Assembly (NCBI RefSeq): GCF_036227605.1
Contig: NZ_CP109487.1
Span: 1,240,001-1,304,000, forward strand
DNA length: 64,000 nucleotides
Reading direction: 5' to 3'
Source of the DNA: Streptomyces sp. NBC_01439
GTDB lineage: Bacteria > Actinomycetota > Actinomycetes > Streptomycetales > Streptomycetaceae
A program made the position numbers and the translations under genes. Positions 28,315 to 58,432 of the stretch are shown one piece after another. Each line of letters begins with the position of its first letter. Positions within the stretch are counted from its first letter, which is position 1. The notes under the pieces were generated by a model that was not told where the DNA came from, did no database searches, and worked only from the letters and a program-made list of their open reading frames with translations.

Positions 28315-28413
28315 GACGTAGGTGCCCATGTCGTCGCCCTCGACAATGCCGGGTAGCGAGCCACCCTCGCGCAAGGGTGTGACATAGCGGGCCGCAATGA
28401 CTTCGGTCAGCAT
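28315..28413 (-). pseudogene. HipA-like kinase, N-terminal fragment at the left end of the insertion
   Basis: The minus-strand frame from ATG 28413 reads ARYVTPLREGGSLPGI...GDDMGTYV, matching the first 35 residues of a HipA-like kinase family common in Streptomyces. It is then cut exactly at the insertion junction; the rest of the frame is antisense of the protease gene. The remainder of the kinase is not in the window. Confidence 0.6.
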
Positions 28414-28520
28414 TTTCCCAGGCCATCCCAGGGCTGGGCCGAATAATCCAAGGCCCGCCCGCTCGTGTACTCGCACCACTGTGACCTCGTCAATTTACAC
28501 CGGGGAGTAACCGGGGAAAA

Positions 28521-28770
28521 TCAGAGGGAGTTCGCGCCCACCAGGTGCCGTCGGCGCGCCCTCGCCGGGCCGGCCCACAGCGCCGCGAGCGCGACGTAAC
28601 CGCCCACGGCGATGGCCTCGTTGTGCCCGATGTTGCGGGCCCCGGAGGCCGTTCCCAGAATCACGGGCGCCAGCCCCAGTGTCAGCACCATCTCCAGGAC
28701 GAGCGTGGTTCCGCTCGCCACCCCCGGACCCGGCACGGTTGCCCCCAGATGGCCCTGCAGACCCTCACGC
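28521..28770 (-). pseudogene. Aquaporin/MIP family fragment
   Basis: The minus strand encodes GATVPGPGVASG, LVLEMVLTLGLAPVILGTAS and AVGGYVALAALWAGP, which fits the second half of a MIP channel. The part that should carry the second NPA motif is replaced by RARRRHLVGAN and a stop. The N-terminal half is missing. A dead remnant. Confidence 0.65.
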
Positions 28771-28908
28771 GTCCGGACAACACGATCGGCCTGGACTGTG
28801 CGATGCCCGCGACGATCACCCCGGTCGCTATCTGCCGAAGATCGAGGAACTGGTGGTGCCTTCCGTGCGTGGCCGGCTCGGGTGACGTCGTAGCGGTGCC
28901 TGCCCTCG

Positions 28909-29385
28909 CTATGTGCCGATCCAGTAGTAGAGGCGGTCTCCACGGTCGGCCGCATCGCGGGCGATGCCGGCCAGCTCGGTCAGGACCTGGGCAAGCACGT
29001 CGGCATCGGTGTCCCTTCCCCGGAAGACCTCCGACACGGCCCAGTCGGCGGCCACGGCCCGCACCTTCTCGGGGGCAAGGCCCGCGAGCGCGTCACGGAA
29101 CGCTTCGGTGAACGAGTGGCATACCGTTCCACCGTCGTCGCTTGAGTTGATGAACCGGCCGTACGGCGGGTCGGCCTCGACGGCCTCGACGGACCTCCCC
29201 GATATCAGGGTGTCGAGCGCCGGCATGTGGACCTCCGGGTCAATACCCGTCAGCACCAATTGGTCGTACCCCGAGCCCATCTCCTCCAGGGTGTCGTGTT
29301 CGACTGCTTCGGCAGCGTGGGCGTCGTCGGTTGCGGCGTAGTAGCCGTAGTGGATGGTCACTCGGTTGATCATGACAGACGCCAC
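28909..29385 (-). CDS. Hypothetical protein, 158 residues
   Basis: The minus-strand frame from GTG 29385 or ATG 29373 has good codon bias. It reads MINRVTIHYGYYAATDDAHA, contains LVLTGIDPEVHMPALDTLIS and VRAVAADWAVSEVFRGRDTD, and ends DRLYYWIGT. It is acidic, soluble and without signal or membrane segments. The family is not recognised. The surrounding fragments suggest cargo of a mobile element. Confidence 0.65.
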   Translation of the reverse strand: MASVMINRVTIHYGYYAATDDAHAAEAVEHDTLEEMGSGYDQLVLTGIDPEVHMPALDTLISGRSVEAVEADPPYGRFINSSDDGGTVCHSFTEAFRDALAGLAPEKVRAVAADWAVSEVFRGRDTDADVLAQVLTELAGIARDAADRGDRLYYWIGT

Positions 29386-29623
29386 AGATCCTCATCGCGC
29401 GAGTGCCCGCACAGCCAGGCCGGGGCAAGCGGCACAGCAGTCGGGAACACGCCCGTCGGCGCTCAGGCGACCGTATTCCCGGACGATGCCGCCGACCACC
29501 GTCGCGGTCTGCTGCGCAACCGACGCACCGGACGGATGATCCGTTCCGGATCCCGCCCCGGCGACCCGCGGTCCAGGCTCCCGATCCGTGGCGAACAACC
29601 ATCCCGCCGCGGAAACAAACAGG

Positions 29624-29884
29624 TCAACGGGACTTCTTCCTCTTCGCGAGGCTCCGCGAGGGAACCTTCCACCAACCCCGGCCGCCGGCCTCAGGCTGAT
29701 CCTCGTCACGCTCGCCACGCGCAGGACAGCCGTACTCGTCGACCGAGTCGATCAGGACCGGGTGACCCCAGTAGCCACACGGACGCAAGCCCTCATCAGC
29801 CGACTCCTGAACAGGCTCTTCGTCACTCGTGACAGTGCCAGGCGACCTCCCGCCTGGCACGGACCCACCACCTTGACCAAACAC
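29624..29884 (-). CDS. Small hypothetical protein, 86 residues
   Basis: The start at GTG 29884 has a strong ribosome site (GGGAGG, 9-10 bp upstream). The product contains EEPVQESADEGLRPCGYWGH, GCPARGERDEDQ and a basic tail RSLAKRKKSR. The two cysteines and the sharp acidic-to-basic layout look protein-like, but no family is recognised. Confidence 0.5.
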   Translation of the reverse strand: MFGQGGGSVPGGRSPGTVTSDEEPVQESADEGLRPCGYWGHPVLIDSVDEYGCPARGERDEDQPEAGGRGWWKVPSRSLAKRKKSR

Positions 29885-30039
29885 ATAAAGACACCTCCCG
29901 AGGCAGGGATCCCTCGGAAGGATTACGGTCGCTCAGACACCCGGGGAAGCCGGGCGACCACCAGGCCGGTCCGCGGCGCTCGGCTGCCGCCGAGCGCTCA
30001 CGCAGTCGAGCCGGCCGGAAATTGGGGAGGGAACGGCCG

Positions 30040-30702: not shown

Positions 30703-31849
30703 CCTCCGTTCCTGCACGGCTCGCCGGCGGAGTGTCGGGGGTCGATCCCTGCCTCCCTGCAAGGCGCGCCGTGGACCGGTCGGTTCTATGCGGATCTGAC
30801 CCACACCGGGTGAGGGGGACGCATGCCGTCCCCTCCGCCCCGCCGTCGGGTCACGTGCGTCAGGACCGCACGGTCCAGCAGCAGAGTGGGCCGGGGGTGT
30901 ACCGCCGGGGTCATCGCGGTTCGCCTCGGCGGGACGACGATGGTGCGGACTGCTTCCGTGCTGCGCGCCGTCGTGCACCGGGCCGATCAAGCGGGTCCAT
31001 TCAGTCCCGGGAAGGGCCGTTCGGCCCCCTGCGAGTCTCGGGTAGCAGAGGAAGTCCGGGTGATGGCGAGCAAGACAGGAGCGGGGGCCCGGAGCCGAGC
31101 TCCGAACCCGAGGCGATGCCGAGACGCTTCCCCGGACGGTGACATGCCGACGTCACCTCTGCCGCGGACCGGGGCGAGCCATCGGAGAAGTCCCCGGCCC
31201 CAGCCCGCGCCGGCCTTGCTCCTGGGGTGCGCTGGGGAGTTCTGCCCCCGCCCGGGGAGTCCCCGGGGAGTTTGAGCGGCATAGGCAGGGAAGCCCGTGG
31301 AAGCCCCTGAAAGAAGCGCGCTCGCGGGTCAGCACCCTAGAGCGGTGCAGAACCGCAGGTCGCGGGGCTGACCACGGGGCCTGCCGACTGCACGTACCGA
31401 GATCATCCGGGGCGATGATTCCGGGAGGGCAGATCACCCTCACATAGGGGCGCGAGACGGGCAAAGTGCAGCCACTTCCACCACCCTAATCCCAGGCCAA
31501 CTCGCGCTCCTCCTTTCAATTCCGAGGCGTACGTCAAGATCGAGCCCGGACGCAGTGCTGCTCGCAATCAACTCTGGGGAGAATCTGGGGGGCAACCAAA
31601 GGGCCATGGCGTCACCCCAGGTCCTGATTGCAGAGCCTGCACCAGTCCGCGAACTAGGGGCGTTTCAAAGTCCCCGCGAGTGCGTGGGTCCGCAGGTCGC
31701 AGCGGCGCAAGAGGCCCGGGCCGGCCCGTCGCGAACGCAACGACCGGTTGGGCGGGTTGACCCTCCCAAGTCGCCTTGATGCACCGGAGCTTCGATGTGC
31801 CACAGGTCTACCACCGTCTGCCTGATCAAGTCTGCCGGTCCTGGGCGGC
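30703..31849. other. Long stretch without a convincing gene
   Basis: Frames here lack codon bias and family matches. It contains the GGGGAGT-rich direct repeat (31240-31340) that recurs near 58.27 kb, and a tRNA-like string GCAGAACCGCAGGTCGCGGG around 31352-31371 that does not fold into a tRNA. Probably remnant mobile-element sequence. Confidence 0.5.
31238..31340 (+). repeat. GGGGAGT-rich direct repeat, left copy
   Basis: Several GGGGAGT units are followed by GCCCGTGGAAGCCCCTGAAAG and GGGTCAGCACCCTA. The same layout occurs at 58270-58390 in the same orientation, roughly 70 percent identical over about 90 bp by eye. It may be arm-type attachment-site DNA of a lost tyrosine-recombinase element (inference). 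Confidence 0.55.
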
Positions 31850-32393: not shown

Positions 32394-32996
32394 TCAGATG
32401 TGTTCCGCCGCCGCATCCAGCAGCCAGTCCGTCAGGTAGCCGGCAAACGACGAGCGGACCAGTACCCAGAATCCGGCCTTTGGTTCGTCCCTGGCGACCA
32501 GCACGATCTGCGTGCGGGCCAGGGTGGTCTGGGCGCAGCATCCGGCTGCGAAGACACGCGGGTGCAGGTCCAGGGGACAGCCATGTGCCAGCAGGTCACG
32601 AGCGCGTGGACCCGTGACGAGGAGGGTGGTGCGCTGGGCGGAGACGTCGGTGACGGCCACGGGATCGTCGCCGCTCGCGGCCCTGATCCGGCTCTCCAAG
32701 TCCCGCTGACTGCCGGTCGGCCCCACCACCAGCCATTCGTCGGGGCCGAGCCACACCGCGGTCAGCTCGCCGGCGCGTACGACGGTGTTGGGTTCGAGGG
32801 GCAGGTGGAGGCCCAGCGCGAGACCGACGGCGTCCGCTGCCGCTCCCTTGGCGTCGAGCCGTACGTTGACCTGGGCCAGGAAGGGGAGTTCGGCCAGCCG
32901 GACCGCGCCCCCGGAGGTGCGCGTCGCGGCGGCCAGGCGGTCGGTGGCATGCAACAGGGGACTGCGGCGCGGGATGGTAAGGGCGATGTCAGCCAT
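32394..32996 (-). CDS. soxG: Sarcosine oxidase gamma subunit
   Basis: The protein has 200 residues from ATG 32996, overlapping the 3' end of the soxDA gene by 8 bp. It matches SoxG: RRSPLLHATDRLAAATR, LGPDEWLVVGP, VTDVSAQRTTLLVTGPRARD and the terminal FWVLVRSSFAGYLTDWLLDA. It forms the small structural subunit of heterotetrameric sarcosine oxidase, which oxidises sarcosine to glycine with THF as one-carbon acceptor. It is the last gene of the operon that begins with dimethylglycine oxidase at 41409. Confidence 0.93.
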   Translation of the reverse strand: MADIALTIPRRSPLLHATDRLAAATRTSGGAVRLAELPFLAQVNVRLDAKGAAADAVGLALGLHLPLEPNTVVRAGELTAVWLGPDEWLVVGPTGSQRDLESRIRAASGDDPVAVTDVSAQRTTLLVTGPRARDLLAHGCPLDLHPRVFAAGCCAQTTLARTQIVLVARDEPKAGFWVLVRSSFAGYLTDWLLDAAAEHI

Positions 32997-35900
32997 CGCG
33001 GCGGGCTCCCTCGGGGTCGTAGAGGACAGGGCTTGCGACGGTCACCGGAACCAGGTGGTCGCCCACGGGGGCGTAGAGCCGCTCGCCGATTCGGTCCCGG
33101 CCGCCCTTCACCAGGGCGAGGGCGAAGGTCCGGCCGAGCGCCGCGCTGCGGTAACTGGAGGTGACGTGGCCGAGCATCGGCACGGGCGGGGCGGGCAGCA
33201 CGCTGTCGGCGACCAGCTGCGTTCCTTCGGGGAGGAAGGCACCCGGGTCCTCCGGGAGCAGGCCGACCAGGTGCTTGCGGTCGGGGCGTACGGCGTCGGC
33301 GCGGGCGTAGGAGCGCTTGCCGATGAAGTCGGGCTTCTTCTTCGACACCGCCCAGCTCATGCCGAGGTCGTGCGGAGTGACGGTGCCGTCGGTGTCCTGG
33401 CCGATGATCGGGTAGCCCTTCTCCGCGCGCAGGACGTGCATGGTCTCGGTGCCGTACGGGGTGATGCCGAACGGGGCACCGGCCTCGTACAGCGCCTCCC
33501 ACAGGGCGAGCGCCTCCCACGGTGACACATTGATCTCATAGGCCAGTTCGCCGGAGAAGCTGATCCGGCACACCCGGGCCTCGACGCCCGCGACGGTCGT
33601 GTCCCGCCACGCCATGAACGGGAAGCTGTCGTTGTCCACCGCCAGTGCCGGCGCGAGCGTCCCCAGCACCTCGCGGGAGCGGGGGCCAACCAGGGCGGCA
33701 GTGGCCCACTGTTCCGTGACGGAGGTGCAGTGGACGCGCAGCTCGGGCCATTCGGTCTGCAGCCATTCCTCCATCCAGTCCAGTACGGCGGCCGCGTTGC
33801 CCGTCGTGGTGGTGATCAGGAAGCGGTCCGGTGCGAGGCGGATGACGGTGCCGTCGTCGAAGATCATGCCGTCCAGGTGGCACATGACGCCGTAGCGGAT
33901 CATGCCGACCTTCAGGTTGCTCATCACGTTGGTGTAGAGCCGGTCGAGGAAGACGGCGGCGTCCGGGCCCTGTACGTCGATCTTGCCGAGGGTGGAGGCG
34001 TCCATGAAGGCGACGCCCTCCCGGGCCGCGGCGCTCTCGCGCAGCACGGCCGTCTCCATGTCCTCGCCGTCCTGTGGGTAGTACCAGGGCCGCTTCCACT
34101 GGCCGACGTTCTCGAACAGGGCGCCGTGCACGATGTGCCAGTCGTGCAGAGCGGTCGTACGGATCGGGTCGTGCAGTGAGCCGCGGTCGCGGCCCGCGAG
34201 CGTGGCGAAGGAGACCGGCGTGTAGGGCGGGCGGAACGTCGTCGTGCCGAGGGCCGAGACGTCCACACCGAGCAGTTCGGCGACGACGCCGCTCGCCAGG
34301 ACCCCGGAGGTCTTGCCCTGGTCGTTGGCGGTGCCGGCCGTGGTGTAGCGCTTGGTGTGCTCGACCGAGCGCAGGCCGGCGCCGGTCGCGCGGATCAGGT
34401 CGTCGGCGGTGACGTCGCGCTGGAGGTCTACGAAACGGGGTGCACCGGCGGCTCCCGGCACGAGGAAGACCAGCATGGCGGGCGAGTGCGGTTCGACGGT
34501 CACCTCGGGGAGGCGGGGCGCCTCGCACGTGTAGCCCTCGGCCTCGATCGCTCGGGCACCGGCGGCCGCGCCCTGCGCGAGGACCCCGGCCAGGTCGAGG
34601 ACGCCGTTCGCGCTGCCGGCGACCTCGACGGCCTGGCGGCAGGTGTCGGGAACGAAGGAGCCGAGGGTGTCGTCGTAGCGCAGCTTGCCGCCAGCCTGAC
34701 TGAACAGGTGGGCGACGGGGTTCCAGCCGCCGGAGACCAGCAGCAGGTCGACGGCGAACTCCCGCGTCCCTGCGGACTCGCCGTACGGGGCGGCCGTCAC
34801 GGCAGTGAGCCGCGGGGCGCCTTCGGTGGCGACGACGGCGTGTCCGGTCAGCACCTCGATACCGGCCTCGCGGGCTCGGCGCGCCCACTCCCCCGGATCG
34901 GGTCGGGTGTCGACGATCACAGCGACCTCCACGCCCGTCGCCGCGAGATCCAGCGCGGCGGCGTAGGCGCTGTCGTTGGTGGTGAAGACGACGGCGCGGC
35001 GGCCGGGCAGGACGCCGTATCGGTTGATGTAGGCGCGGGCCGCGGCCGCGAGCATCACTCCGGGGCGGTCGTTGTCCGCGAAGGCCAGTGAGCGCTCGTG
35101 GGCGCCGGTCGCGAGTACGACGCGACGTGCTCGGATGCGCCAGACGCGCTCTCGGGAGAGGTGCTCGGGGGCGAGTGCGCCGAGGTGGTTCGTGCGGCGC
35201 TCGACGGCGAGGAGGTGGTTGTCGTCGTAGTGGCCGAAGACCGTGGTACGGCGGAGTACGCGCACCTCGGGTGCCGTGTCGAGCTGCTGACCCGACTCCT
35301 GTACCCAGTTGTGGAGTTGAGCTGTGTCCAGCAGGCTGCCGCCCAACTCGGGCCGGTCGTCGGCGAGGATGACGCGCGCTCCGCTGCGGGCGGCGGCCGT
35401 CGCGGCGGCGAGACCGGCCGGGCCGGCGCCTACGACAAGCAGGTCGCAGTGGGCGTGGACGGCGTCGTAGCGGGCCGGGTCCGGCTCGGTGGCGAGGCGT
35501 CCCTGGCCGGGCAGGCTGCTCGCCACCAGGCCGTCGTACAGCTCCACGGTCGTCGCGGGCAGCATCGGCTCGGGGAACGGGGCCTCGATCTGGATGACGG
35601 CGTTGGGCTCCTCGACTCCGGCCGAGAAGATGCCACGCGGGCGGCCGAGCTTGATACTCGTGCCGGCCTGGATGACGCCGTTGGCCAGGAGGGCGGAGGC
35701 GAGGGTGTCGCCTTCGTAACCCTGGTATTCGGTGCCGTCGAAGGTGAAAGTCAAGGGGCGGTCGCGGTTGATGCGGCCGCCGGTCAGGAGGCGGAAGCCG
35801 GTTGCCGGTACCGCCGCTGGGGACTCCGCCCCCGGACCCCCGTTCGGCCCTGAAGGGGCCTCGTCCCCAAACCCCGGACGGGCTGATGGTGCCGGCCGTG

Positions 35901-36198
35901 GCGGAGAAGGCACCGGACGCTCACTGACCGCCGGGCACTCCTCCCCCGACCGGTACACGGAGAGAACCTCGTTCGTCGACGTGTCCCGCACCGCGTTGAA
36001 CCACCGTCGGCAGCCCGCCGCATGGCTCCAGCGCTCGGCGAAGGGACCCTTCGGGTTGTCGCGGAAGAACAGATACCGGGCCCACTCCTCGTCGGTCAGG
36101 TCTGCGGATTGCTCCGGATACGGCACATGGGCCTGGCCGCCGTAGTGGAACTCGGCTTCGTCACGGGGCCCGCACCAGGGGCAGGGGATCAGCAGCAT
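32989..36198 (-). CDS. soxA: Fused sarcosine oxidase delta-alpha subunit (SoxD-SoxA)
   Basis: One open frame of 1,069 residues from ATG 36198 joins two normally separate subunits. Residues 1-90 are SoxD with zinc ligands (IPCPWCGPRDEAEFHYGG, SHAAGCRRWFNAVRDTST). A Pro/Gly-rich linker (about 91-130) follows. SoxA then runs from GGRINRDRPLTFTFDG, with a 2Fe-2S-like N-terminal domain, the FAD/NAD motif LLVVGAGPAGLAAATAAARS, and a C-terminal aminomethyltransferase (GcvT) domain (LHDWHIVHGALFENVGQWKR, GYPIIGQDTDGTVTPHDLGM) that makes 5,10-methylene-THF. The linker DNA (35810-35885) resembles a common Streptomyces intergenic repeat. It is coupled to soxG by overlap. A stop lost to sequencing error would also give this picture, but the frame stays open throughout the linker. 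Confidence 0.9.
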   Translation of the reverse strand: MLLIPCPWCGPRDEAEFHYGGQAHVPYPEQSADLTDEEWARYLFFRDNPKGPFAERWSHAAGCRRWFNAVRDTSTNEVLSVYRSGEECPAVSERPVPSPPRPAPSARPGFGDEAPSGPNGGPGAESPAAVPATGFRLLTGGRINRDRPLTFTFDGTEYQGYEGDTLASALLANGVIQAGTSIKLGRPRGIFSAGVEEPNAVIQIEAPFPEPMLPATTVELYDGLVASSLPGQGRLATEPDPARYDAVHAHCDLLVVGAGPAGLAAATAAARSGARVILADDRPELGGSLLDTAQLHNWVQESGQQLDTAPEVRVLRRTTVFGHYDDNHLLAVERRTNHLGALAPEHLSRERVWRIRARRVVLATGAHERSLAFADNDRPGVMLAAAARAYINRYGVLPGRRAVVFTTNDSAYAAALDLAATGVEVAVIVDTRPDPGEWARRAREAGIEVLTGHAVVATEGAPRLTAVTAAPYGESAGTREFAVDLLLVSGGWNPVAHLFSQAGGKLRYDDTLGSFVPDTCRQAVEVAGSANGVLDLAGVLAQGAAAGARAIEAEGYTCEAPRLPEVTVEPHSPAMLVFLVPGAAGAPRFVDLQRDVTADDLIRATGAGLRSVEHTKRYTTAGTANDQGKTSGVLASGVVAELLGVDVSALGTTTFRPPYTPVSFATLAGRDRGSLHDPIRTTALHDWHIVHGALFENVGQWKRPWYYPQDGEDMETAVLRESAAAREGVAFMDASTLGKIDVQGPDAAVFLDRLYTNVMSNLKVGMIRYGVMCHLDGMIFDDGTVIRLAPDRFLITTTTGNAAAVLDWMEEWLQTEWPELRVHCTSVTEQWATAALVGPRSREVLGTLAPALAVDNDSFPFMAWRDTTVAGVEARVCRISFSGELAYEINVSPWEALALWEALYEAGAPFGITPYGTETMHVLRAEKGYPIIGQDTDGTVTPHDLGMSWAVSKKKPDFIGKRSYARADAVRPDRKHLVGLLPEDPGAFLPEGTQLVADSVLPAPPVPMLGHVTSSYRSAALGRTFALALVKGGRDRIGERLYAPVGDHLVPVTVASPVLYDPEGARRDG
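35810..35885. repeat. Streptomyces-type intergenic repeat inside the SoxD-SoxA linker
   Basis: On the minus strand the sequence runs GCCCGTCCGGGGTTTGGGG, then ACGAGGCCCCTTCAGGGCC, then GGGGGTCCGGGGGCGGAGTC. This style of GC-rich repeat is very frequent between genes in Streptomyces, yet here it is translated in frame. Recognised from memory of such genomes, not by a search. Confidence 0.55.
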
Positions 36199-36209: not shown

Positions 36210-37442
36210 CTAGTGGGCCACCGCGGCCGCGCCGTGCTCGTCGACGAGCGCGCCGGTGGTGAAACGGTCGAGCGAGAAGGGGGCGTTGAGGTGGTGGGGG
36301 GTGTCGTGGGCGATGGTGTGGGCGTAGACCCAGCCGACACCTGGGGTGGCTTTGAAGCCGCCGGTCCCCCAACCGCAGTTCAAGTAAAGGTTGTCCACCG
36401 GAGTGAGGCCGATGATCGGCGAGGCGTCGGGGCTGACGTCGACGATGCCGCCCCAGGTACGCAGCACATGGGCGCGGGCGAAGACCGGGAAGAGTTCGAG
36501 GGCGGCGGACATCTGCTCTTCGATGATGTGGAAGGCGCCTCGCTGGGTGTAGGAGTTGTACGAGTCGATGCCCGCGCCCATCACCAGCTCGCCCTTGTGC
36601 GCCTGGCTGACGTACACATGGACCGCGTTGGACATGACGACCGTCGGGTGCACCGGCTCCAGGAGTTCGGAGACGAGCGCTTGCAACGGGTGGCTCTGCA
36701 GGGGCAGTTCGATGCCCGCCATGGCGGCGAGGACCGAAGTGTGGCCAGCCGAGCAGAGCGCGACCTTGCCCGCGGCGATCGGACCGAGGGAGGTCTGTAC
36801 GCCGACCGCCCGGCCGCCGACGATGTCGAGGCCGGTGACCTCGCAGTTCTGGATGATGTCGATCCCGGCGGCGTCGGCGGAGCGGGCCAGGCCCCAGGCG
36901 ACGTGGTCGTGCTTGGCGATGCCGGCGCGCGGCTGGTAGGTGCCGCCCATCACCGGATAGCGCACGTCGGGCGAGATGTTCACGATGGGGCAGACGTCCT
37001 TGACCTGCTGCTCGTCGAGCCATTCGGCGTCCACGCCGTTGAGCCGGTTCGCCTCGACGCGGCGCACGCTGTCACGGACGTCCTGCAGGCTGTGGGCGAG
37101 GTTCAGCACGCCGCGCTGGGAGAAGAGGATCGGGTAGTCGAGCTCGTCCTCCAGTCCCTCCCACAGCTTGAGCGCGTGCTCGTATATGCCGGCGCTCTCG
37201 TCCCACAGGTAGTTGGAACGGATGATGGTGGTGTTGCGGGCCATGTTGCCGCCCGCCAGCCAGCCCTTCTCCAGCACGGCGACGTTGGTGATGCCGTGGT
37301 TCTTCGCCAGATAGTGGGCAGTGGCAAGGCCGTGTCCGCCGCCTCCCACGATCACCACGTCGTACGACTTCTTGGGCTCGGGTGTGCGCCACAGCCAGTC
37401 GGGGTGCTCGGGGAGCTCGGCGCCCGGGGTGCGGGGGCTCAT
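36210..37442 (-). CDS. soxB: Sarcosine oxidase beta subunit
   Basis: The protein has 410 residues from ATG 37442, which overlaps the stop of the upstream glyA remnant (ATGA). It has the FAD-binding motif [18 protein letters not shown] and SoxB blocks [45 protein letters not shown] and [18 protein letters not shown]. It carries the sarcosine oxidation site and covalent flavin of the heterotetramer. Eleven bp separate it from soxDA. Length is normal. Confidence 0.95.
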
Positions 37443-38970: not shown

Positions 38971-41424
<2,454 letters not shown>

Positions 41425-42629: not shown

Positions 42630-42641
42630 GATCCGCGCTCC

Positions 42642-45739: not shown

Positions 45740-45759
45740 GATCGACCTCTCTTCGGCGT

Positions 45760-47229: not shown

Positions 47230-47254
47230 GTGTGGAGCCCTTCGAGCGAATTTC

Positions 47255-47433: not shown

Positions 47434-47448
47434 CAACGGAGGCTGCAC

Positions 47449-49246: not shown

Positions 49247-50914
49247 CTACCCGGCCTGCTTCCGGGCGTCGCGGTACCGGTAGTACGCGGCCTTGGAGGC
49301 GGGCAGCGGCTCCTTGCCGAGGATGAGGTCCGCCGCCTTCTCCGCGATCATCATCACCGGCGCGTAGATGTTGCCGTTGGTGACGTAGGGCATCACCGAC
49401 GCGTCGACGACGCGCAGTCCCTCCACGCCGTGTACACGCATGCTGGTCGGATCGACGACGGACATCTCGTCGGTGCCCATCTTGCAGGTGCACGAGGGGT
49501 GCAGGGCGGTCTCGCCCTCCTTCGCAACCCAGGCGAGGATCTCCTCGTCGCTCTCCACGGACGGGCCGGGTGAGATCTCCCCGTCGTTGTACGGGGCCAG
49601 AGCGGGCTGGTTGAGGAGCTTGCGGGCGACGCGGATCGACTCGGCCCACTCGCGGCGGTCCTGTTCGGTGGACAGGTAGTTGAAGCGCAGTGCCGGGTGC
49701 TCGTTCGGGTCCTTGCTCTTGATCTTCACCGAGCCGATGGCGTCGGAGTACATGGGCCCGACGTGCACCTGGTAGCCGTGGCCGCCGGCCGGCGAGGAGC
49801 CGTCGTAGCGGACCGCGATCGGCAGGAAGTGGAACATCAGGTTGGGGTAGTCCACGTCCTCGTTGCTGCGGGCGAAGCCGCCTGCCTCGAAGTGGTTGGT
49901 CGAGGCGGGGCCCTTGCGGAAGAGCCATTGCAGGCCGATGAAGGGGGCGCGCCACTTGGCCATGTACGGCTGCATGGAGACGGGCTGCTTGCAAGCGTAC
50001 TGGATGTACACCTCCAGGTGGTCCTGCATGTTCTCGCCGACACCCGGCAGGTCGTGGACGAGGTCGATGCCGAGCGCGCTCAGTTCCTCGGCGTTGCCGA
50101 CGCCGGAGAGCTGGAGCAGCTGAGGGGAGTTGATCGCGCCGCCGCAGAGGATGACCTCGCGGGCGCGCGCCTGCTGGACCTTGCCACGTCGCCGGTACTC
50201 GACGCCGACGGCCTTCTTGCCCTCGAAGAGAACGCGGGTGACCAGCGCGCGGGTGGTGATGGTGAGGTTGGGCCGCTTCTTCACGGGCTTCAGGTACGCC
50301 TTCGAAGCCGACAGACGGCGGCCCCGGCTGACGTTGCGGTCGAATGGGGCGAAGCCCTCCTGCCGATAGCCGTTGACGTCGTCGGTGCGGGGGTAGCCCG
50401 CCTCCTGGACGGCCTTGAGGAAGGCGGTGAACAGCGGGTTGAAGGCGGGGCCGCGTTCGAGGACGAGCGGGCCTTCGTGGCCGCGGAACTCGTCGTCGGG
50501 ATCGGCCGCGAGACAGTTCTCCATCCGCTTGAAGTACGGCAGACAGTGCGCGTAGTCCCAGGTCTCCATCCCGGCATCGGCGGCCCAGCGCTCATAGTCC
50601 ATGGGGTTGCCGCGCTGGAAGATCATGCCGTTGATGCTGCTGGAGCCGCCCAGCACCTTGCCGCGCGCGTGGTAGATGCGCCGGTCGCCCATGTGCGGCT
50701 CGGGTTCGGACTCGTACTTCCAGTCGTAGAACCGGCTGCCGATCGGATAGGTCAGCGCCGCGGGCATGTGGATGAAGACATCCCACGGGTAGTCGGGCCG
50801 GCCGGCCTCCAGGACCAGCACCTGGTTGCCCGGGTCGGCGGAGAGCCGGTTCGCCAGAGCGCTGCCGGCGGATCCACCACCGACGATGACGAAGTCGTAT
50901 TGCAGGGGAGCCAT
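49247..50914 (-). CDS. betA: Choline dehydrogenase (GMC oxidoreductase)
   Basis: The protein has 555 residues from ATG 50914. The FAD motif is [19 protein letters not shown], with GMC signatures [20 protein letters not shown] and [20 protein letters not shown]. The C-terminal catalytic His/Asn region has HPSCTCKMG and [20 protein letters not shown]. Length and motif spacing fit BetA. It oxidises choline to betaine aldehyde at the membrane or with a quinone acceptor. It is divergent from the IclR gene across a spacer with two operator-like palindromes. Confidence 0.95.
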
Positions 50915-50962
50915 GGTGCCTCGTCTCGCTCGCGCCGTAGATACGCGTGGCATGCTAATACA

Positions 50963-50999
50963 GGTAGCGCTATACGCACCAGGTTGCGGAAAGCGCAAC
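50963..50999. promoter_or_regulatory. Two IclR-type operators between betA and the IclR gene
   Basis: GGTAGCGCTATACGCACC (50963-50980) and the perfect palindrome GTTGCGGAAAGCGCAAC (50983-50999) lie between the divergent genes. This is the best copy of the module's motif and sits where an autoregulatory operator would be expected. Confidence 0.75.
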
Positions 51000-51064
51000 G
51001 TGCGAGCCTGCGTTTCCACGCTGTTGTTTGCGTTTCTGTTGTTTACTGCGCATATAGTTTTGCT

Positions 51065-51862
51065 GTGAGCAACTACAGTCCAGATACCGAAACGACGGGT
51101 TCGCAGCCTGGCGGCGTGCAGTCCGTCGACCGCGCCATCAGCGTGCTGGAGATCCTGGCCCAGCGCGGCGAGGCCGGCGTCAGCGAGGTGGCCGCCGAGA
51201 TCGATGTTCACAAGTCGACCGCGTTCCGACTGCTCGGCGCCCTGGAGGCGCGCGGTCTGGTGGAGCAGGCGGGCGAGCGCGGCAAGTACCGCCTCGGCTT
51301 CGGCATCGTACGCCTGGCCGGCGCGGTCACCGGACGCATCGACATCACCCAGCAGGGCCGCCCGGTCTGCGAGCGCCTCGCCGAGGAGATCGGCGAGACC
51401 ATCAACATCGCCGTCATGCAGGAGCACTACGCGATCAACCTCTACGAGGTGCGCGGTCCGGGGGCCGTCGCCGCGCACAACTGGGTCGGCAAGCTGACCC
51501 CGTTGCACGCCACCTCCAGCGGCAAGATCCTTTTGGCCTACCTGCCGGCCAGGGAACGCGCCGCGATGCTTTCCGAGGCCGGCCTGAAGAAGGTGACCAC
51601 GCACACCCTCACCTCGAAGACGAAGCTCGAGAAGAATCTCGCCGAGGCCCGGGAGCGTGGCTACTCCTGGACTGTGGAGGAGCTGGAAGTCGGGCTCCAC
51701 GCCATGGCCGCGCCGGTCCGCGATCGGGACGGAGTGGTCATCGCGGCGCTCAGCGCCTCCGGACCCTCGTACCGGTTCACCGAGGAGCGTATGCATGAGC
51801 TCGCTCCGGTGCTGGTCAAGGGTGCGGACGAGATCAGCCATCGGATGGGCTACCTGGGCTGA
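51065..51862 (+). CDS. IclR-family transcriptional regulator of the choline/betaine module
   Basis: The protein has 265 residues from GTG 51065. No ribosome site precedes it, so the transcript may be leaderless or nearly so. The winged HTH is at about 20-75 ([40 protein letters not shown]). The IclR effector domain (about 85-260) has [20 protein letters not shown] and [20 protein letters not shown]. It is the only regulator in the insertion. A palindrome typical of IclR sites is repeated before nearly all module genes. The ligand is probably choline, betaine or a later intermediate (inference). Confidence 0.92.
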
Positions 51863-51927: not shown

Positions 51928-53058
51928 CTACTGCGGCTGCCCTGTCCCCAGGCGTTCCTGGACCCAGTCGTGGAACTCACCGATGTGGTGCTCGCTGGGC
52001 ACCAGTACGCCGCCCTTGGCGTACAGCCGGGAGCTCATCGCGGGCTGACAGCGCTCGCACGCGTCGAAGTCCTGCCGGTTGACGCGGTCGAATAGCTCCA
52101 CCGACCGGCTGACGTCCTTGCCGCTTTCGACGACGCGTTTGAGGTAGAGCCAGTCGCACTCGACGAGCGTGCGGTCCGCGGCGACCGGGTACATCCGGTG
52201 AAAAATCACATGGTCGGGGACGAGGTTGATGAACACCTGCGGCTTGACGGTGATCGCGTAGTAGCGGCGGTCCTGCTCCTCGGTGACCCCCGGAATGCGG
52301 TCCAGCCCCTCCGAGCCGTCGACGGTGAAGCCCTTGATCTCGGCGCCGAACTCCGCACCGTGCCCAACGTAGTACTGAGCGGCGTACCCGTCGGCGAACT
52401 CCGGTAGCACTTCGGTGAGTTCGGGGTGGATCGTGGCGCAGTGGTAGCACTCCATGAAGTTCTCGACGATCAGCTTCCAGTTCGCCTTGACGTCATAGAC
52501 GATCCGCTTGCCGACCTCGAGCTTCTCCATGTCGTAGTGCTCGATCGACTCGGTGTCGCCGAGGCGTGCGACGACGTCCTGCACGACCTCCTCGAAGGGA
52601 GGCGGGCTCTCCGCGAGGCACACCCACACGTAGCCGAGCCATTCATGGGTCGCCACGCCCGCCAAGCCGTACTCCGTGCGGCTGATGTCGGGCATCTTGG
52701 TGAGGTTGGGCGCCGCGACGAGTTTGCCCGTCAGGTCGTACGTCCAGGCGTGGTAAGGGCACTGGAAGGCACGCTTGACCTCGCCGGTCTCCTCCGTGCA
52801 GAGCTTCGCTCCGCGGTGCCGGCAGACGTTGAAGAAGGCACGTATGGAGTTGTCCCGTGCGCGCGTGATCAGAATGCTCTCGCGGCCCACCCCTACGGTC
52901 CGGAAGGCGCCGGGCCTGGCCAGATCCGAGGAGCGTACGGCGCAGAACCACATCGTTTCGAAGATGCGCTCCTGCTCCTGGGCGAAGATCTCCGGATCCG
53001 TGTAGGAGGAGCCGGGGAGGGTGGCGATCAGGCTGTCCGGCAGGCTGGTCGAGGTCAC
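51928..53058 (-). CDS. Rieske oxygenase alpha subunit, probable glycine betaine monooxygenase
   Basis: The protein has 376 residues from GTG 53058 with GAGGAG 6 bp upstream. The Rieske centre is CRHRGAKLC...CPYHAWTYD (about 82-110). The catalytic domain has the mononuclear iron site [15 protein letters not shown], with the second His from the same motif and an acidic residue in CDWLYLKR or later. The fold matches betaine, carnitine and stachydrine oxygenases. Because genes for choline to betaine and for dimethylglycine to glycine are all here, betaine to dimethylglycine plus formaldehyde is the step it should catalyse. The direct substrate is inferred. Confidence 0.88.
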
Positions 53059-53143
53059 AGTGCACTCCTCGGAGAACGTCGTGGATCGGTCATTCACGCG
53101 CCGGGAAGAGCAGCTCCGGACGGTGTTTTGCATGGAGCAACGC

Positions 53144-53160: not shown

Positions 53161-53188
53161 AATAGAATGAAAGGTCGCATCGGCGCTG

Positions 53189-54358
53189 TCAAGATGCCGC
53201 GGAGGCGAGCTGCTTGCGCCAACGCATGAACAGTCGCGGCTGGTTCATCGCGAGCACGGCGACCGGCTGCCCGGCACGCCGGTAGACGGCCAGAAAACTG
53301 CGGTCGCCCAGGGCGCCTTCCTCGACCGTCACGCCGTCGGCACCGGCCGCATGACCGGCGAACTGGATCTTCACCCCGTACTGGTCCGACCAGAAGTACG
53401 GCGGCCTGGGCACACCCGGCTCCGCAGCACCCCGCGACAGCAGCGCGGCCACGGCAGCGTCGGGCCGCTCCCGCGCACCGGTCCAGTGCTCGACGCGGCG
53501 ATGGACCCCCGCGTGGGGGTCGTACCAGGAGGCGCAGTCACCGACCGCGACCACACCGGCGAGGCTGGTACGGCCGTCCGCGCCGCACTTGACGCCGTTG
53601 TCGAGGACAACGCCGGACCCTTCCAGCCACTCGACACACGGGCTCGCGCCCACACCGACGACGACGATGTCGGCGGGGATGCTGCGGCCGTCCTCGAGCA
53701 GGACGGCGTCGACCCGGGTCTCGCCGCTCAGCCCCTTGACACCCACGCCGCACAGCAGCCGTACGCCGTGGTCCGCATGGAGGGCGGAGACGATGCCGCC
53801 CATGATCTCGCCGAGCGGTCCGGCGAGCGGCGTCGATGCCGCCTCGACGACCGTCACGTCGAGTCCGAGGGCGTATGCGGTGGAAGCGACCTCGGCACCG
53901 ATGAATCCGCCTCCGATCACGACCAGCCTCCCACCCAGGGCCAGTTCGTCCCGCAGGGCGCGGGCGTCGTCCAGGGTGCGCAGAGTGTGCACCCCGGCCG
54001 TCCCGTCCGTGCCCGGCAGGCTCCGCGCTACCGCACCGGTCGCGATGACGACGCCCTCGGCCCGGACCTCCCGGCCGTCGGCGAGCCGCACGACACGGCC
54101 CGTACCGTCGGTGCCGAGTGCGGTGGCCCGGGCGCCGAGCAGCCATTCCGCCTGCAGGTCCTCGTCGTCCGACTCCAGCGCGAGATCGGCTTCGCCGATC
54201 CCGCCGACGAGGAACTCCTTGGACAGCGGCGGTCTGTCGTACGGGCGGTGCGGTTCGTCACCGATGACGACCAGCCGGCCGCCGTACCCCTGTTTCCGCA
54301 ATGAGCGCGCCGCCGACAGGCCGGCCAGCGAGGCGCCCACCACGGCCACCGTCCTCAC
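53189..54358 (-). CDS. FAD-dependent ferredoxin reductase
   Basis: The protein has 389 residues from GTG 54358, which overlaps the ferredoxin stop (GTGA). It has the FAD motif VAVVGASLAGLSAARSLR, substrate loop YDRPPLSKEFL, NAD motif RLVVIGGGFIGAEVASTA, and second FAD block VVAVGDCASWYDPHAG. It belongs to the BenC/CamA-type reductases that pass electrons from NAD(P)H to a Rieske ferredoxin. It supplies the oxygenase encoded just downstream. Confidence 0.92.
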   Translation of the reverse strand: MRTVAVVGASLAGLSAARSLRKQGYGGRLVVIGDEPHRPYDRPPLSKEFLVGGIGEADLALESDDEDLQAEWLLGARATALGTDGTGRVVRLADGREVRAEGVVIATGAVARSLPGTDGTAGVHTLRTLDDARALRDELALGGRLVVIGGGFIGAEVASTAYALGLDVTVVEAASTPLAGPLGEIMGGIVSALHADHGVRLLCGVGVKGLSGETRVDAVLLEDGRSIPADIVVVGVGASPCVEWLEGSGVVLDNGVKCGADGRTSLAGVVAVGDCASWYDPHAGVHRRVEHWTGARERPDAAVAALLSRGAAEPGVPRPPYFWSDQYGVKIQFAGHAAGADGVTVEEGALGDRSFLAVYRRAGQPVAVLAMNQPRLFMRWRKQLASAAS

Positions 54359-54717
54359 GCGCGGCCTCCGGCCAGCCGGGACCCGACGCAGGGCGGCAGG
54401 TTGGGGGCCTCCGTGGACAACACGACGTAGATCATGCCGCCCTCGACGATGACCTCGTGGGTACGCACCGGGCGCTTGGCCGGCGGAGCGTCGACGGCCC
54501 CGGTCCGGAGGTTGAACTTCGAAGCGTGCAGCGGGCATTCCACCTCGCAACCCTCCAACCAGCCGTCGGCGAGCGAGGCGTCCTGGTGGGTGCAGGTGTC
54601 GTCGATGGCGAACACTTCGCCGGTGTCGGTGTGGAACACCGACACCGGCGGATCGGCTTCGAGCCGGTAGGCCTCGCCTCGCGGCAGATCCGCGAGAAGG
54701 CACGCGGGAATCATCAT
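54355..54717 (-). CDS. Rieske-type [2Fe-2S] ferredoxin
   Basis: The protein has 120 residues from ATG 54717 (CCGAGGTGTC upstream). The Rieske ligands are complete: CTHQDASLADG and CPLHASKF, in the small-ferredoxin fold (PVSVFHTDTGEVFAIDDTCT). It is translationally coupled to the reductase, and its promoter has two operator-like repeats. Together with the reductase and oxygenase it makes a three-component system, unlike the two-component GbcAB of Pseudomonas. Confidence 0.92.
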   Translation of the reverse strand: MMIPACLLADLPRGEAYRLEADPPVSVFHTDTGEVFAIDDTCTHQDASLADGWLEGCEVECPLHASKFNLRTGAVDAPPAKRPVRTHEVIVEGGMIYVVLSTEAPNLPPCVGSRLAGGRA

Positions 54718-54725
54718 GACACCTC

Positions 54726-54761
54726 GGTGCGTATAGCGAAACAGATTGCGGTAAGCGCAAC
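54726..54761. promoter_or_regulatory. Tandem IclR-type operators upstream of the ferredoxin gene
   Basis: GGTGCGTATAGCGAAAC (54726-54742) and ATTGCGGTAAGCGCAAC (54745-54761) are spaced 19 bp apart, start to start, in the leader of the ferredoxin-reductase unit. Confidence 0.7.
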
Positions 54762-54828
54762 GCCAGTTTGAGGGCGGCCCCAAACCCTTGTCAAGGCATC
54801 CAGGGGACGGGCAGCCCCCTGGTTCGGC

Positions 54829-54845
54829 GTTGTTCTTTACGCAAC
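54829..54845. promoter_or_regulatory. IclR-type operator upstream of the serine dehydratase remnant
   Basis: GTTGTTCTTTACGCAAC fits the GTTGCG-N5-CGCAAC pattern with one changed half-site, just before the start region of the sdaA pseudogene. It suggests that the gene was once part of the regulon. Confidence 0.6.
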
Positions 54846-54885
54846 CCTTTGCACCATAGACAACGCTCGCCTGGAGGATCCCGTC

Positions 54886-55923
54886 GCGGCGATCAGCGTC
54901 TTCGACCTGTTCAAGGCGGGCACCGGGCCGTCGAGCTCCCACACCGTCGGGCCATGAAGGCCGCCCGCCTCCTCGTCACCGGGGTGCACCAAGACGGTCT
55001 GCTCCCCGGTGCCGCCTCTGTCCGGGCAGAACCCTTCGGATCGCTCGGCGCCCCGGGCCACAGCAAGCGGCAGCGGCAGCGGCAGCGGCAAGGCGGTACT
55101 CCTCGGCCTCGAAGGGACGGTCCGGAAACCGTCGACACCGGCACCAGGGACGACCGTGTGCGCCGGATCCACGAGGCCGGCCGATCGCGGCTGCTGCGCC
55201 GCCGGAAAGTGGAGTTCCGCTAGCGCGAGGACCTGGGTGCTGCACCGTCGCCGCACGTTGCCGTTCCACCCCAACGGCGTGCAGTTCCCCGCCAGAGACC
55301 GCGAAGGCGGCACGTTGAGGGCGCGCACGTACTACTCGGTGGGCGGGGGCTTCGTCGTCGACGAGAGCCCCCCGGGCGCCGACCACATCAAGCCCGACGA
55401 CACACCTGTACCGCTCCCCTTCGGCTCGGCACCCGAACTGCTGTTCCGCGCCAACGAGACCGGCCTGCCGATCAGTGGAGTGATGCTCACCAAGGAGCTG
55501 GCCCGGCGGAGCGAAAGCGAGGTGCGCGTCGGCCTGCTGCGGATGTGGGCGGTGATGCAGGAGTGCGTGGAGCGCGGCTGTTCACGGACCGAGACCACCC
55601 TGCCCGGGCGGCTTAGGGTGCCACGCCGCGCCCCGCAGCTACTGCGCAGCCTCGCCGAGGATTCCTCGGATGTGGATCCGCTGCACATCATGGACTGGGT
55701 CGATCTCTTCGCGCTGGCCGTCAACGCGGGAACGCCCTCGCCTCGGTCAAGGCGATCAATGCGGCACGGATGGCGCTGCGTGGCGACGACACTCACGTGG
55801 TCTCGCTCGACAAGGTCATCAAAACGATGCGCGAGACCGGTGCCGACATGAAAGTGAAATACAAGGAGACCTCGCGCGACGGCCTCGCGGTCGACGTCAT
55901 CGAGTGCCGAGACGTTCCGAGGG
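54886..55923 (+). pseudogene. sdaA: L-serine dehydratase, degraded
   Basis: The parts of SdaA are recognisable in order but in different frames: AISVFDLFKAGTGPSSSHTV at the start; a shift at GTCGGGCCATG, where one C of GGGCCCATG is missing; KAVLLGLEG in a second frame and [19 protein letters not shown] in a third; then [13 protein letters not shown] to [13 protein letters not shown]. Next the Fe-S ligand and catalytic middle is absent, and the C-terminus resumes in another frame ([37 protein letters not shown]). There are several frameshifts plus a deletion of several hundred bases, so the enzyme is dead. It would have turned serine into pyruvate. Confidence 0.88.
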
Positions 55924-55947
55924 TTCTGGCGAAGCCGCCGCCGGTGG

Positions 55948-56589
55948 TCAGAATCCGCGGTCGATCCACTCCTGAAGGTGCGGTGCCTCGGCGGCGATGG
56001 TGGTCGTCTCACCATGGCCGGTGTGTACCACCGTGTCGCCCGGCAGTGTCAGCAGCCGGTCCCGGATCGAGTCGACGATGGTGCCGAAGTGGCTGTGTGA
56101 CCTGCCCGTCGCCCCCGGCCCGCCCGCGAAGAGCGTGTCACCGCTGAACAGTGCCCGCAGGTCCGGCGCGTACAGGCAGACCGCACCGGGGGCGTGACCG
56201 GGGGTGTGCAGGACGGTCAGCTCGACACCCGCCACGGTGACGACCTGCCCGTCCGCCAAGTCACCGTCGGGTGACCGCTCCGGGTGGGTCTGCTTCCACA
56301 GCGGCAGGTCGTCGCCGTGGAGCAGGGTCGGAGCACCGGTACGGTCGGCAAGTTCAGGGGCTGCGTCGATGTGGTCGTTATGGGCGTGGGTGCACACGAT
56401 GGCCCGCAGCGTGCGTCCGCCGAGGGCTTCGGCGATCGCCTCGGCGTCGTGCGCGGCGTCGATGACGACGGCCTCGGTATCGTCGCCGATGATCCAGACA
56501 TTGTTGTCGACGTCCCAGGTGTCACCGTCCAGGGAGAACGTCCCCGAGGTGACGAGGTGTTCGATGCGGGCACCCTTCTTGCCGGCCAT
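55948..56589 (-). CDS. MBL-fold hydrolase, probable S-formylmycothiol hydrolase
   Basis: The protein has 213 residues from ATG 56589, which overlaps the upstream dehydrogenase stop (TGATG). It has the metallo-beta-lactamase motifs [33 protein letters not shown] and [11 protein letters not shown]. In actinomycetes such glyoxalase II-like proteins are regularly coupled to MscR. They are thought to hydrolyse S-formylmycothiol to formate. The assignment rests on the coupling. Confidence 0.88.
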
Positions 56590-57674
56590 CAGAAGACCAC
56601 CACCGAGCGCAGTACGTCGCCGCCGTGCATCCGCTCGAAGGCCTTCTCGACCTCGTCCAGTGCGATGGTCTCCGTGACGAAGGCGTCCAGGTCAAGTCGC
56701 CCCTGCAGATAGAGGTCGATGAGCATCGGGAAGTCACGCGAGGGCAGGCAGTCGCCGTACCAGGAGGACTTCAGTGCACCGCCCCGGCCGAACACGTCCA
56801 GCAGCGGCAGCTCCAGCTTCATCTCCGGGGTCGGCACACCGACGAGGACGACCGTGCCGGCCAGATCGCGGGCGTAGAAGGCCTGCTTGTACGTCTCCGG
56901 GCGGCCGACCGCCTCGATGACGACGTCCGCACCGAAGCCGCCGGTCAGCTCGCGGATGGCCTCCACCGGATCACCCCGCTTGGAGTTGACGGTGTGGGTC
57001 GCGCCGATCTTCTTCGCGGTCTCGAGTTTCCGGTCGTCGAGATCGACCGCGATGATGGTGGCTGCCCCGGCGAGCCGGGCGCCGGCGATCGCCGCGTCGC
57101 CCACGCCACCGCAGCCGATGACCGCCACGCTGTCACCGCGTCCGACGTTGCCGGTGTTGATGGCCGCGCCGATGCCCGCCATCACTCCGCAACCCAGCAG
57201 TCCGGCGGCGGCCGCCGATGCTGCCCGGTCGACCTTGGTGCACTGTCCCGCCGCCACGAGCGTCTTCTCCGCGAACGCGCCGATACCCAGGGCCGGGGAC
57301 AGCTCGGTGCCGTCGGTCAAGGTCATCTTCTGCTTCGCGTTGTGGGTGTTGAAGCAGTACTGCGGCCGTCCACGCAGACAGGCCCGGCACTGCCCGCACA
57401 CGGCACGCCAGTTGAGAATGACGAAGTCACCCGGAACGACATCGGTGACGCCCTCCCCCACCGACTCCACAACACCCGCGGCCTCATGGCCCAGCAGGAA
57501 CGGGAAGTCGTCGTTGATGCCACCCTCGCGATAGTGCAGATCGGTGTGGCAGACCCCGCAGGCCTCGATCTTCACCAGCGCCTCGCCCGGGCCGGGGTCG
57601 GGCACGATGATCGTTTCCAGGCTGACGGGGGCGCTCTTCCCCCGCGCGACGACAGCACGGACCTGGTGAGTCAT
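56589..57674 (-). CDS. mscR: S-(hydroxymethyl)mycothiol dehydrogenase (mycothiol-dependent formaldehyde dehydrogenase)
   Basis: The protein has 361 residues from ATG 57674 with GAGGAG at the right distance; GTG 57680 is too close to it. This zinc alcohol dehydrogenase has catalytic Cys in [14 protein letters not shown], the four-Cys structural zinc loop [15 protein letters not shown], and NAD motif [19 protein letters not shown]. The best fit is MscR, which oxidises the adduct of formaldehyde and mycothiol. Betaine demethylation by the Rieske enzyme would release formaldehyde, so it has a clear job here. An operator-like repeat lies upstream. Confidence 0.92.
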
Positions 57675-57710
57675 GGCCACTCCTCAGCTGGTACGAGACC
57701 TGATTCGGGT

Positions 57711-57727
57711 GTTGCTTAATACGGCAC
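57711..57727. promoter_or_regulatory. IclR-type operator upstream of mscR
   Basis: GTTGCTTAATACGGCAC lies 37 bp before the ATG at 57674, with a half-site GTGCCGCAAC (57737-57746) next to it. A weaker match to the module motif. Confidence 0.5.
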
Positions 57728-57939
57728 GCATCTCATGTGCCGCAACATAGCATCATGGAGGGCCGAGCAGGGGTCAAGGATCCGTACACAAAGAACGCCT
57801 ACTGGACAGGGGCGACCCCGCCCTTCATCGGCACCCGTGCACCCCCGCGCGATCGCGACCTGTTCGCGCGGCCGGACGGGGCGATACCCCTTGATCGTGG
57901 ACCACCTGATCATTGGATCGCGAGGATCCGAAGGACAAA

Positions 57940-58095
57940 AGTTCCCGTTGTCGGGCTGCACCTACGCAAGAAGGTCCGCACCACCATCCCCGAGCCGACG
58001 GCGACGCCGGTGCCGGACCTGCTGCGGCGCGACTTCACCGCGATCGCACCGAATTCCCGGTACGTGAGCGGCATGACCCACCTGCATTCCCGACA
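57940..58095 (+). pseudogene. IS3-family transposase (OrfB) fragment
   Basis: The plus frame reads RKKVRTTIPEPTATPVPDLL, RRDFTAIAPNSRYVSGMTHL, the familiar segment just before the DDE core of IS3-family OrfB. Nothing of the catalytic part follows. A small remnant near the right end of the insertion. Confidence 0.75.
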
Positions 58096-58099
58096 GGCA

Positions 58100-58430
58100 T
58101 CGCCACCCTCCGCAACGGGCCGGCCGAGGAGCCCCTGACGTCGAGACTTCGCCCCGCCAGACAACGCGTGGGCCACCACGTGCCGGGAGCGGTGCGGCAG
58201 GGGCCGTCGGAGGCTGCTCCACACCCATGCGGCAGAGACCAAACCGGAACTCCCCAGACCGCCCCGCTGGGGAGTGCCTGGGGAGTTCCGGGGCCGTACG
58301 GGGAGTCTCTGGGGAGTTCTAGCCGCGTAAGCCAGAAAGCCCGTGAAAGACCTCCAAAGCAGCAACACCGCAGGTCAGCGCCATACCATGGGCCGAAAGC
58401 CCAGCTCAGAGCCCCGGGCTCGGGGCCTAC
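58100..58430. other. Right flank of the insertion: repeat-rich, non-coding
   Basis: No gene is seen. The stretch holds the GGGGAGT-rich repeat (58270-58390) and a short GC palindrome (GAGCCCCGGGCTCGGGG) directly before the resumed protease gene. Confidence 0.5.
58270..58390 (+). repeat. GGGGAGT-rich direct repeat, right copy
   Basis: It holds four GGGGAGT units, then GCCAGAAAGCCCGTGAAAGA and CAGGTCAGCGCCATA. It parallels 31238-31340 in the same orientation. The two copies bracket the catabolic module. Confidence 0.55.
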
Positions 58431-58432
58431 AT

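Follow-up and report, generated by a model that had tools for sequence, protein, structure and literature searches.

The window analyzed in this work is a 64,000-nucleotide stretch of Streptomyces sp. NBC_01439 (bases 1240001-1304000 of its single 9.58-Mb contig, NZ_CP109487.1), in which a segment of 30,118 bp (positions 28315-58432, or 1268315-1298432 on the contig) interrupts a gene for a protein with trypsin and nSTAND1 domains. The site is in an arm region of the chromosome, 1.27 Mb from where the contig begins. The segment is likely to belong to a family of site-specific integrative elements that targets a HipA-like kinase gene, and to be found here at a secondary site. The main support for this assignment is that both ends of the segment coincide with a crossover point seen in independent genomes (comparison genomes are designated by G-numbers, their contigs by C-numbers and the loci by L-numbers).

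The left part of the interrupted gene (26969-28321, plus strand; Trypsin_2 and nSTAND1) starts with GTG at 26969 and reads to ...YETGLVDR, after which only M, T and a stop codon at 28321 follow, two codons past the junction. The right part, from 58431, reads ILQDTGSEPGALPLL... in the same orientation. In Pfam, the left part covers residues 1-215 of the 379 of nSTAND1 and the right part (58433-59048, plus strand) residues 215-378. A CAT triplet is present on both sides, at 28312-28314 (the left junction) and at 58430-58432, and removal of 28315-58432 mends the frame (...GLVDR/ILQDTGSEPG...). The left and right parts were found in one frame, no more than 60 bp apart, in 25 of 25 homologous copies (22 loci were included, 21 of them with a left match reaching at least residue 435; L054 gave no row, and L019 and L020 were left out). 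A DNA query spanning the joint matched over 600 of 600 bases in G157 (80% identity) and in one of the two G044 copies (72%). A first-pass annotation of this DNA had proposed one gene split between 28314 and 58433 and had named separate genes in all relatives as the alternative; comparison of the sequences confirms that the two pieces are one trypsin-nSTAND1 gene.

The same annotation had considered the segment to be inserted, or joined by misassembly, and the nature of its ends, which that annotation had not recognized, now supports insertion. The left end (28315-28428, minus strand; hereafter HipA') is the beginning of a HipA gene: its start codon is at 28411-28413, and the minus strand from 28413 to 28315 reads MLTEVIAARYVTPLREGGSLPGIVEGDDMGTYV, which in translation is the start of a HipA_2-family kinase gene (the family name was taken from the intact G004 homolog). 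HipA' thus comprises the first 33 codons and a few upstream bases, and is cut by the left junction. It showed 72-85% identity over 103-114 bp to the HipA starts of six integrase loci, with the likeness ending at the junction. The right end (58250-58432, plus strand; hereafter X) is a conserved attachment arm whose last bases are CCTACAT. G257 has a counterpart of X (86% identity) that ends at the same CAT; there it is directly followed by a HipA start, which corresponds to the left end of our segment. When the two ends were joined and used as a query, matches crossed the joint in G257 (84% over 292 bp) and G038 (77% over 294 bp); in HipA-only loci found by the same search, the first matching query base was 228 or 231, no more than six from the joint between bases 233 and 234.

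X was searched in 392 genomes and matched in 12 of them, including the present one (E 1e-4 or better; some matches partial). Seven of the 15 listed places, namely six X copies and a copy inside the window's segment, could be aligned and have conserved TGGGGAG, GAAAG and GGTCAG repeats. These repeats may correspond to arm-type sites, as expected for tyrosine integrases. The repeat CCGGGGAGTAACCGGGGA at 28500-28517 is, by eye, similar to repeats that occur in X and at the ends of integrase genes. We had initially read an integrase remnant by eye at approximately 28500-28536, but comparison with six integrases gave no support and this reading was dropped. Elsewhere X adjoins different genes. G124 and G001 have a gene start there, MFTTRPTLQGTFGM, presumably of a gamma-glutamyltransferase-like gene, and G361 has another site.

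Among 12 genomes searched for HipA fragments and genes, four contained an intact HipA gene together with a separate 5' fragment of HipA on the same contig and strand, approximately 15 kb (G257), 31 kb (G004), 22 kb (G024) and 200 kb (G038) apart; the present genome is the fifth with a separate fragment. In those four, the bases at each fragment and intact gene site are CAT/GACGTA. The intact HipA has its own ...GTGAACTT upstream of CAT, and the CAT of the fragment is preceded by X in G257 and G038 and by an X-like sequence (by eye) in G004. This pattern is what an element would leave on entering the 5' end of the gene while bringing a replacement 5' end. A 431-aa tyrosine integrase is encoded beside the intact HipA in G038, and its decayed homolog (63% over 289 aa) is beside the intact HipA in G024. 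HipA began immediately after the integrase gene in six of 20 loci examined from a genus search with the G038 integrase, and the listed positions suggest the same adjacency in G009 and in a second G130 contig. In G038, G024, G033, G097, G130, G153 and G064, HipA comes directly after a tyrosine integrase. Because G257 and G038 carry X joined to HipA', four genomes have an intact HipA on the same contig and strand, and an integrase gene is located beside HipA (intact in one, decayed in another), X/CAT/HipA' looks like the attachment joint of HipA-targeting elements. The ends of the segment, X and HipA' meeting at CAT, are those of this family; the segment has no tyrosine integrase gene beside HipA', and it sits in the nSTAND gene and not at CTTCAT/GACGTA in HipA. 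The HipA gene of the present genome is whole and empty (7718662-7719516).

A second, decayed joint of X and HipA' was detected by sequence likeness inside the segment (31222-31499). Positions 31222-31455 are 74% identical over 240 bp to the contiguous joint of G038, and 31474-31499 resemble the tail of HipA'. This inner joint suggests that the segment is a fusion of two tandem units and marks their border.

These observations are best explained by the following scheme. The circular form of a HipA-targeting element would carry the joint X/CAT/HipA', with a tyrosine integrase gene just upstream of HipA', where HipA' would be a copy of the first 33 codons of a chromosomal HipA_2 kinase gene. By the usual route, the circle would recombine at CTTCAT/GACGTA in HipA, so that the gene takes its 5' end from the HipA' of the element, while its former one remains next to X as a fragment. 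In the present case, the circle of 30,118 bp would have been a fusion of two tandem units, the larger with a block of choline degradation genes, and would have recombined at GACCGCAT/CCTGCAGG in the trypsin-nSTAND1 gene and split it. The crossover enzyme would be a tyrosine integrase of the family acting, in cis or in trans, at the CAT of the nSTAND gene. Since the segment now has no integrase, either its own has been lost or one acting in trans would have moved it; the segment is probably stranded in the nSTAND gene. Identity between HipA' and the genome's own HipA is 81.4%, below that of the four resident fragment-gene pairs (100, 97.3, 93.8 and 85.8%); this divergence points to a circle of foreign origin, presumably from another strain. 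The order of events, the length of the crossover and the direction of transfer are likewise suppositions of this scheme.

The lack of an integrase was already stated by the first-pass annotation and holds: none of the 17 Phage_integrase and four Recombinase matches listed for the genome falls within 1268315-1298432, and the six HipA-linked family integrases gave no convincing match. It should be noted that this and several other findings weigh against the proposed scheme. The six integrases matched the segment over the HipA start only, apart from one match at E 0.45, and no match to the G038 integrase was obtained in the window (E 0.01). An intact family integrase beside HipA is kept in just one of the four HipA islands, that of G038; there is none in G004, only a partial, opposite-strand piece of another type in G257, and no recognizable X before the HipA fragment of G024. 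An integrase-target pair guessed for the X end of G124 was not found. The nSTAND site is called secondary because it matches the attachment site in HipA (attB) poorly, at 13 of 30 bases, a level reached by 6.5% of 1425 CAT sites, and the sites in G124, G001 and G361 resemble HipA attB better on the readable side. With the circle joint it shares 16 of 30 bases, which 13 of the 1425 CAT sites reach, the window's own two junctions included; this likeness is only suggestive. Tyrosine integrases usually share more than three bases with their target. Only the CAT triplet is common to the joint and the nSTAND site, in line with the earlier remark that the ends have nothing but this triplet in common.

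Such a short shared sequence would suit a different recombinase, either a serine integrase or some other enzyme with a crossover of two or three bases (CAT), for which X and HipA' served as arms and the tyrosine integrases were mere neighbors. That few islands retain an integrase also fits this explanation. However, no Recombinase-family (large serine) gene was found near the islands or X ends in 11 genomes, nine of which have such genes elsewhere, and no such gene was found in or near the segment; a tyrosine integrase directly precedes HipA in the seven genomes named above, and the repeated motifs of X look like arm-type sites. We consider another recombinase unlikely. Serine integrases of the phiC31 or Samy type in particular were rejected, as there was no Recombinase match nearby; the Samy site is a radical SAM gene (PMC12924846). 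Still less probable is illegitimate joining, in which a fragment with the choline block entered the nSTAND gene through three bases of microhomology without any site-specific enzyme. CAT as the sole common sequence and the poor attB match agree with it, but it leaves unexplained that both ends stop at the crossover point of X and HipA' known from G257 and G038.

The same coincidence bears on misassembly, that is, the placement of an unrelated or extrachromosomal 30-kb piece in the gene. Our analysis is of the assembly alone, and the target gene is damaged elsewhere too, which might favor such an error. However, the genome is one contig, and both ends of the segment stop at the crossover point of a real joint found joined in other genomes, which would not be expected of an assembly error; misassembly is thus very improbable. 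We assign an equally small likelihood to transposition of a composite transposon with CAT as a 3-bp target duplication. CAT does occur at both ends, and a transposase remnant (57877-58085, plus strand) is located approximately 350 bp inside the right end. Yet this remnant is single, and instead of insertion sequences or matching transposon ends, the segment has a HipA gene start at 28315 and X at 58432. The remnant itself has an internal loss, as its two pieces are approximately 570 bp further apart in G090 and G204, and a full-length relative carries rve and HTH_21 domains. A site-specific insertion of the HipA-targeting family remains our preferred interpretation, given where the ends of the segment fall.

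From left to right, the segment consists of HipA', approximately 2.7 kb with two frames of no assigned family, the decayed inner joint, the choline block (32.3-57.8 kb), the transposase remnant and X. The genes of the block are on the minus strand unless noted and were assigned by Pfam domains. The first is sarcosine oxidase gamma (SoxG; 32394-32996, PF04268), followed by a sarcosine oxidase alpha-type protein (32989-36000, approximate bounds; SO_alpha_A3, GCV_T and Fer2_4) and a FAD-dependent oxidoreductase that is SoxB-type by position (36210-37460, approximate bounds; DAO). Next are a serine hydroxymethyltransferase frame (37439-38449; only residues 265-399 of the 399 of SHMT), a FolD-type dehydrogenase/cyclohydrolase (38074-38934, longest frame; THF_DHG_CYH), a dimethylglycine/sarcosine dehydrogenase-type protein (38971-41409; DAO, FAO_M and GCV_T), and the binding protein, permease and ATPase of a glycine betaine-type ATP-binding cassette (ABC) transporter (41658-45925; OpuAC, BPD_transp_1 and ABC_tran). 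An aldehyde dehydrogenase (45760-48270; Aldedh) and a GMC oxidoreductase (49247-51841; GMC_oxred_N and GMC_oxred_C), whose frames are longer than the genes, would act on betaine aldehyde and choline, respectively, and a Rieske oxygenase alpha subunit (51928-53133; Ring_hydroxyl_A and Rieske) would demethylate betaine together with the reductase and Rieske ferredoxin frames (53192-54975; Pyr_redox_2, Reductase_C and Rieske). A serine dehydratase gene on the plus strand (54958-55848) is damaged, with residues 53-153 of the 155 of SDH_beta and only 1-85 of the 260 of SDH_alpha. The last two genes code for a metallo-beta-lactamase (MBL)-fold hydrolase and a zinc alcohol dehydrogenase (55948-57680), the latter annotated as S-(hydroxymethyl)mycothiol dehydrogenase in plasmid relatives.

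With substrates predicted from these families, the block would provide a route from choline to glycine that includes the GMC oxidoreductase, aldehyde dehydrogenase, Rieske oxygenase with its ferredoxin and reductase, dimethylglycine-type dehydrogenase, sarcosine oxidase subunits, betaine-type transporter, FolD and formaldehyde disposal. The previous description of the block as a whole choline degradation module was mostly right, but the serine hydroxymethyltransferase gene lacks 675 bp internally (in alignments with G024, G040 and G144) and the serine dehydratase gene is damaged. The Pfam-scanned frames of the segment (a subset of its 160 frames of at least 100 aa) contained no domain for replication or transfer. 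ARAGORN found no tRNA gene in the window or in nine related loci, and a tRNA-targeted element was rejected; Rfam revealed no known RNA element in the window at gathering scores.

A 19.5-kb query from the block gave matches (E 1e-30 or better) in 176 of 176 scored genomes (23 of 199 were not scored). Among the listed genomes, many match the formaldehyde dehydrogenase end only, and a smaller set has long stretches of the block. The closest are G024 and G040, with pieces of 87-95% identity (93% over the longest). In comparison with G024, five neighboring stretches of the window showed 75-82% identity, and the HipA region a mean of 82% over 1917 bp (pieces 77-88%). Since the likeness of the block to this relative is above that of most other stretches, it was probably transferred; from these comparisons, the block appears to have been acquired horizontally. 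Long stretches of the block occur in other genomes, but neither X nor HipA' adjoins it in the stretches examined in G024, G040, G144, G159 and G033 (the G024 contig ends approximately 1 kb past the block on one side), and the idea of a block bounded by attachment sites elsewhere was abandoned. A plasmid source was also considered and rejected: 33 plasmid records matched, none over more than 80% of the query in one place, and the best of those listed reached 13%. In G024 (C39:55349-66373), homologs of window positions 14612-25560 and 60877-62759 adjoin the choline block without a nSTAND gene, and the homologs of the 24.1 and 60.9 kb regions are adjacent to each other. These neighbors (homologs of 14.6, 24.1 and 61 kb) would allow a local hop of the block, but we do not favor it, as the divergent HipA' argues for a foreign circle instead.

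The target gene has a second lesion. Matches of the G157 protein (tblastn) stop at residue 613 (base 58943) and restart at residue 828 (base 58958) in another frame, i.e., approximately 214 residues are lost and the frame is changed at 58943-58958; because of this, the nSTAND gene would be broken even without the insert. The C-terminal beta-propeller part (58958-60754, plus strand) has 48% identity to residues 828-1429 of the G157 protein, and has weak Pfam matches of WD40 type that fall below the cut-off. The split gene is preceded by a Trypco1 gene (26547-26972, plus strand; PF19493, E 2.3e-24). According to a previous study, Trypco1 is paired with trypsin-type peptidases in bacterial conflict systems (PMC7159879). 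The target gene likewise has a trypsin domain and a neighboring Trypco1 gene; unlike those systems, this putative conflict gene is broken twice. Elsewhere in the window, the strongest self-match is a 322-bp direct repeat (3524-3843 and 8651-8968, 76% identity).

Several features of the related islands were also recorded. In G361 (C1:727219-742325, L185/L186), approximately 440 bp separate an X-type end from a Trypco1-like gene downstream of it, and a frame of 1504 aa with stretches resembling caspases and NTPases (by eye) is nearby; conflict genes may be frequent neighbors of X ends. G304 has two X-like ends 28 kb apart (C23:54841 and 82874) with the same gene fragment after each, as in tandem accretion at another target gene. 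In G038 (C1:6515701-6717338), the fragment with X and the intact HipA with integrase are 200 kb apart in the same orientation, and this span might be one huge island, an accretion or a rearrangement; near the X end of this genome (L156, C1, 13589-15316), a frame starts with a stretch resembling ribosomal protein uL4 and continues with unrelated sequence (by eye). The HipA island of G024 (L164, C10, 9891-17368) codes for a trypsin-like protein (Trypsin_2) beside kinase-like and vWA-like frames (by eye), and that of G257 (L150, C15, 858-13209) consists mostly of two giant frames, a first of 2455 aa that looks RHS-like by eye and a second of 1616 aa. G024 also has a second HipA paralog (C12:136591-137633) with an integrase piece directly upstream.

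Among known systems, the segment looks like a cis-mobilizable element (CIME), as judged from its sequence a putative remnant of two tandem units. In PMC5704250, CIMEs are defined by attachment ends that are kept, integration genes that are absent, and tandem accretion. Similarly, the segment keeps both attachment-type ends, has cargo and no integrase (the former presence of integration genes is presumed), and has an internal relic joint as a sign of tandem accretion; it differs in being located at a secondary site and not in the target gene of the family. Streptomyces actinomycete integrative and conjugative elements (AICEs), as described in PMC9513070, are also site-specific islands with direct repeats, inserted partly in protein-coding genes and subject to accretion and decay. 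In contrast to AICEs, which have their own integrase, replication and TraB-type transfer genes, no such domain was recognized among the segment frames scanned, and the site is in the arm region. NBU1 and SGI1 (PMC5704250) are likewise site-specific elements that use an alternative site, whereas here HipA is present and free now. We would thus file the segment under an element type already known, as a HipA-family insertion at an unusual site. In our literature search we did not see the 5' end of HipA_2 named as an integration site in Streptomyces, and the HipA passages seen in PMC5704250 concern toxin-antitoxin cargo, with no HipA integration site in them.

It is possible, although we hold this only tentatively, that Streptomyces harbor an island family that inserts at the 5' end of a HipA-like kinase gene (or, in the case of related X ends, of other genes), many members of which lack an integrase and move in trans with large catabolic and conflict-system cargo, and that the segment is an escape from the kinase site into a conflict gene. 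The 5' end of the HipA_2 kinase gene is a candidate integration site in Streptomyces. With the proposed interpretation, a seemingly random 30-kb insertion would become a readable site-specific event, and X, HipA' and the CAT crossover would offer end sequences for finding such islands when the integrase is gone. It would also follow that a catabolic block resembling ordinary arm content can travel, and that such an insertion can incidentally cause the loss of a conflict gene.

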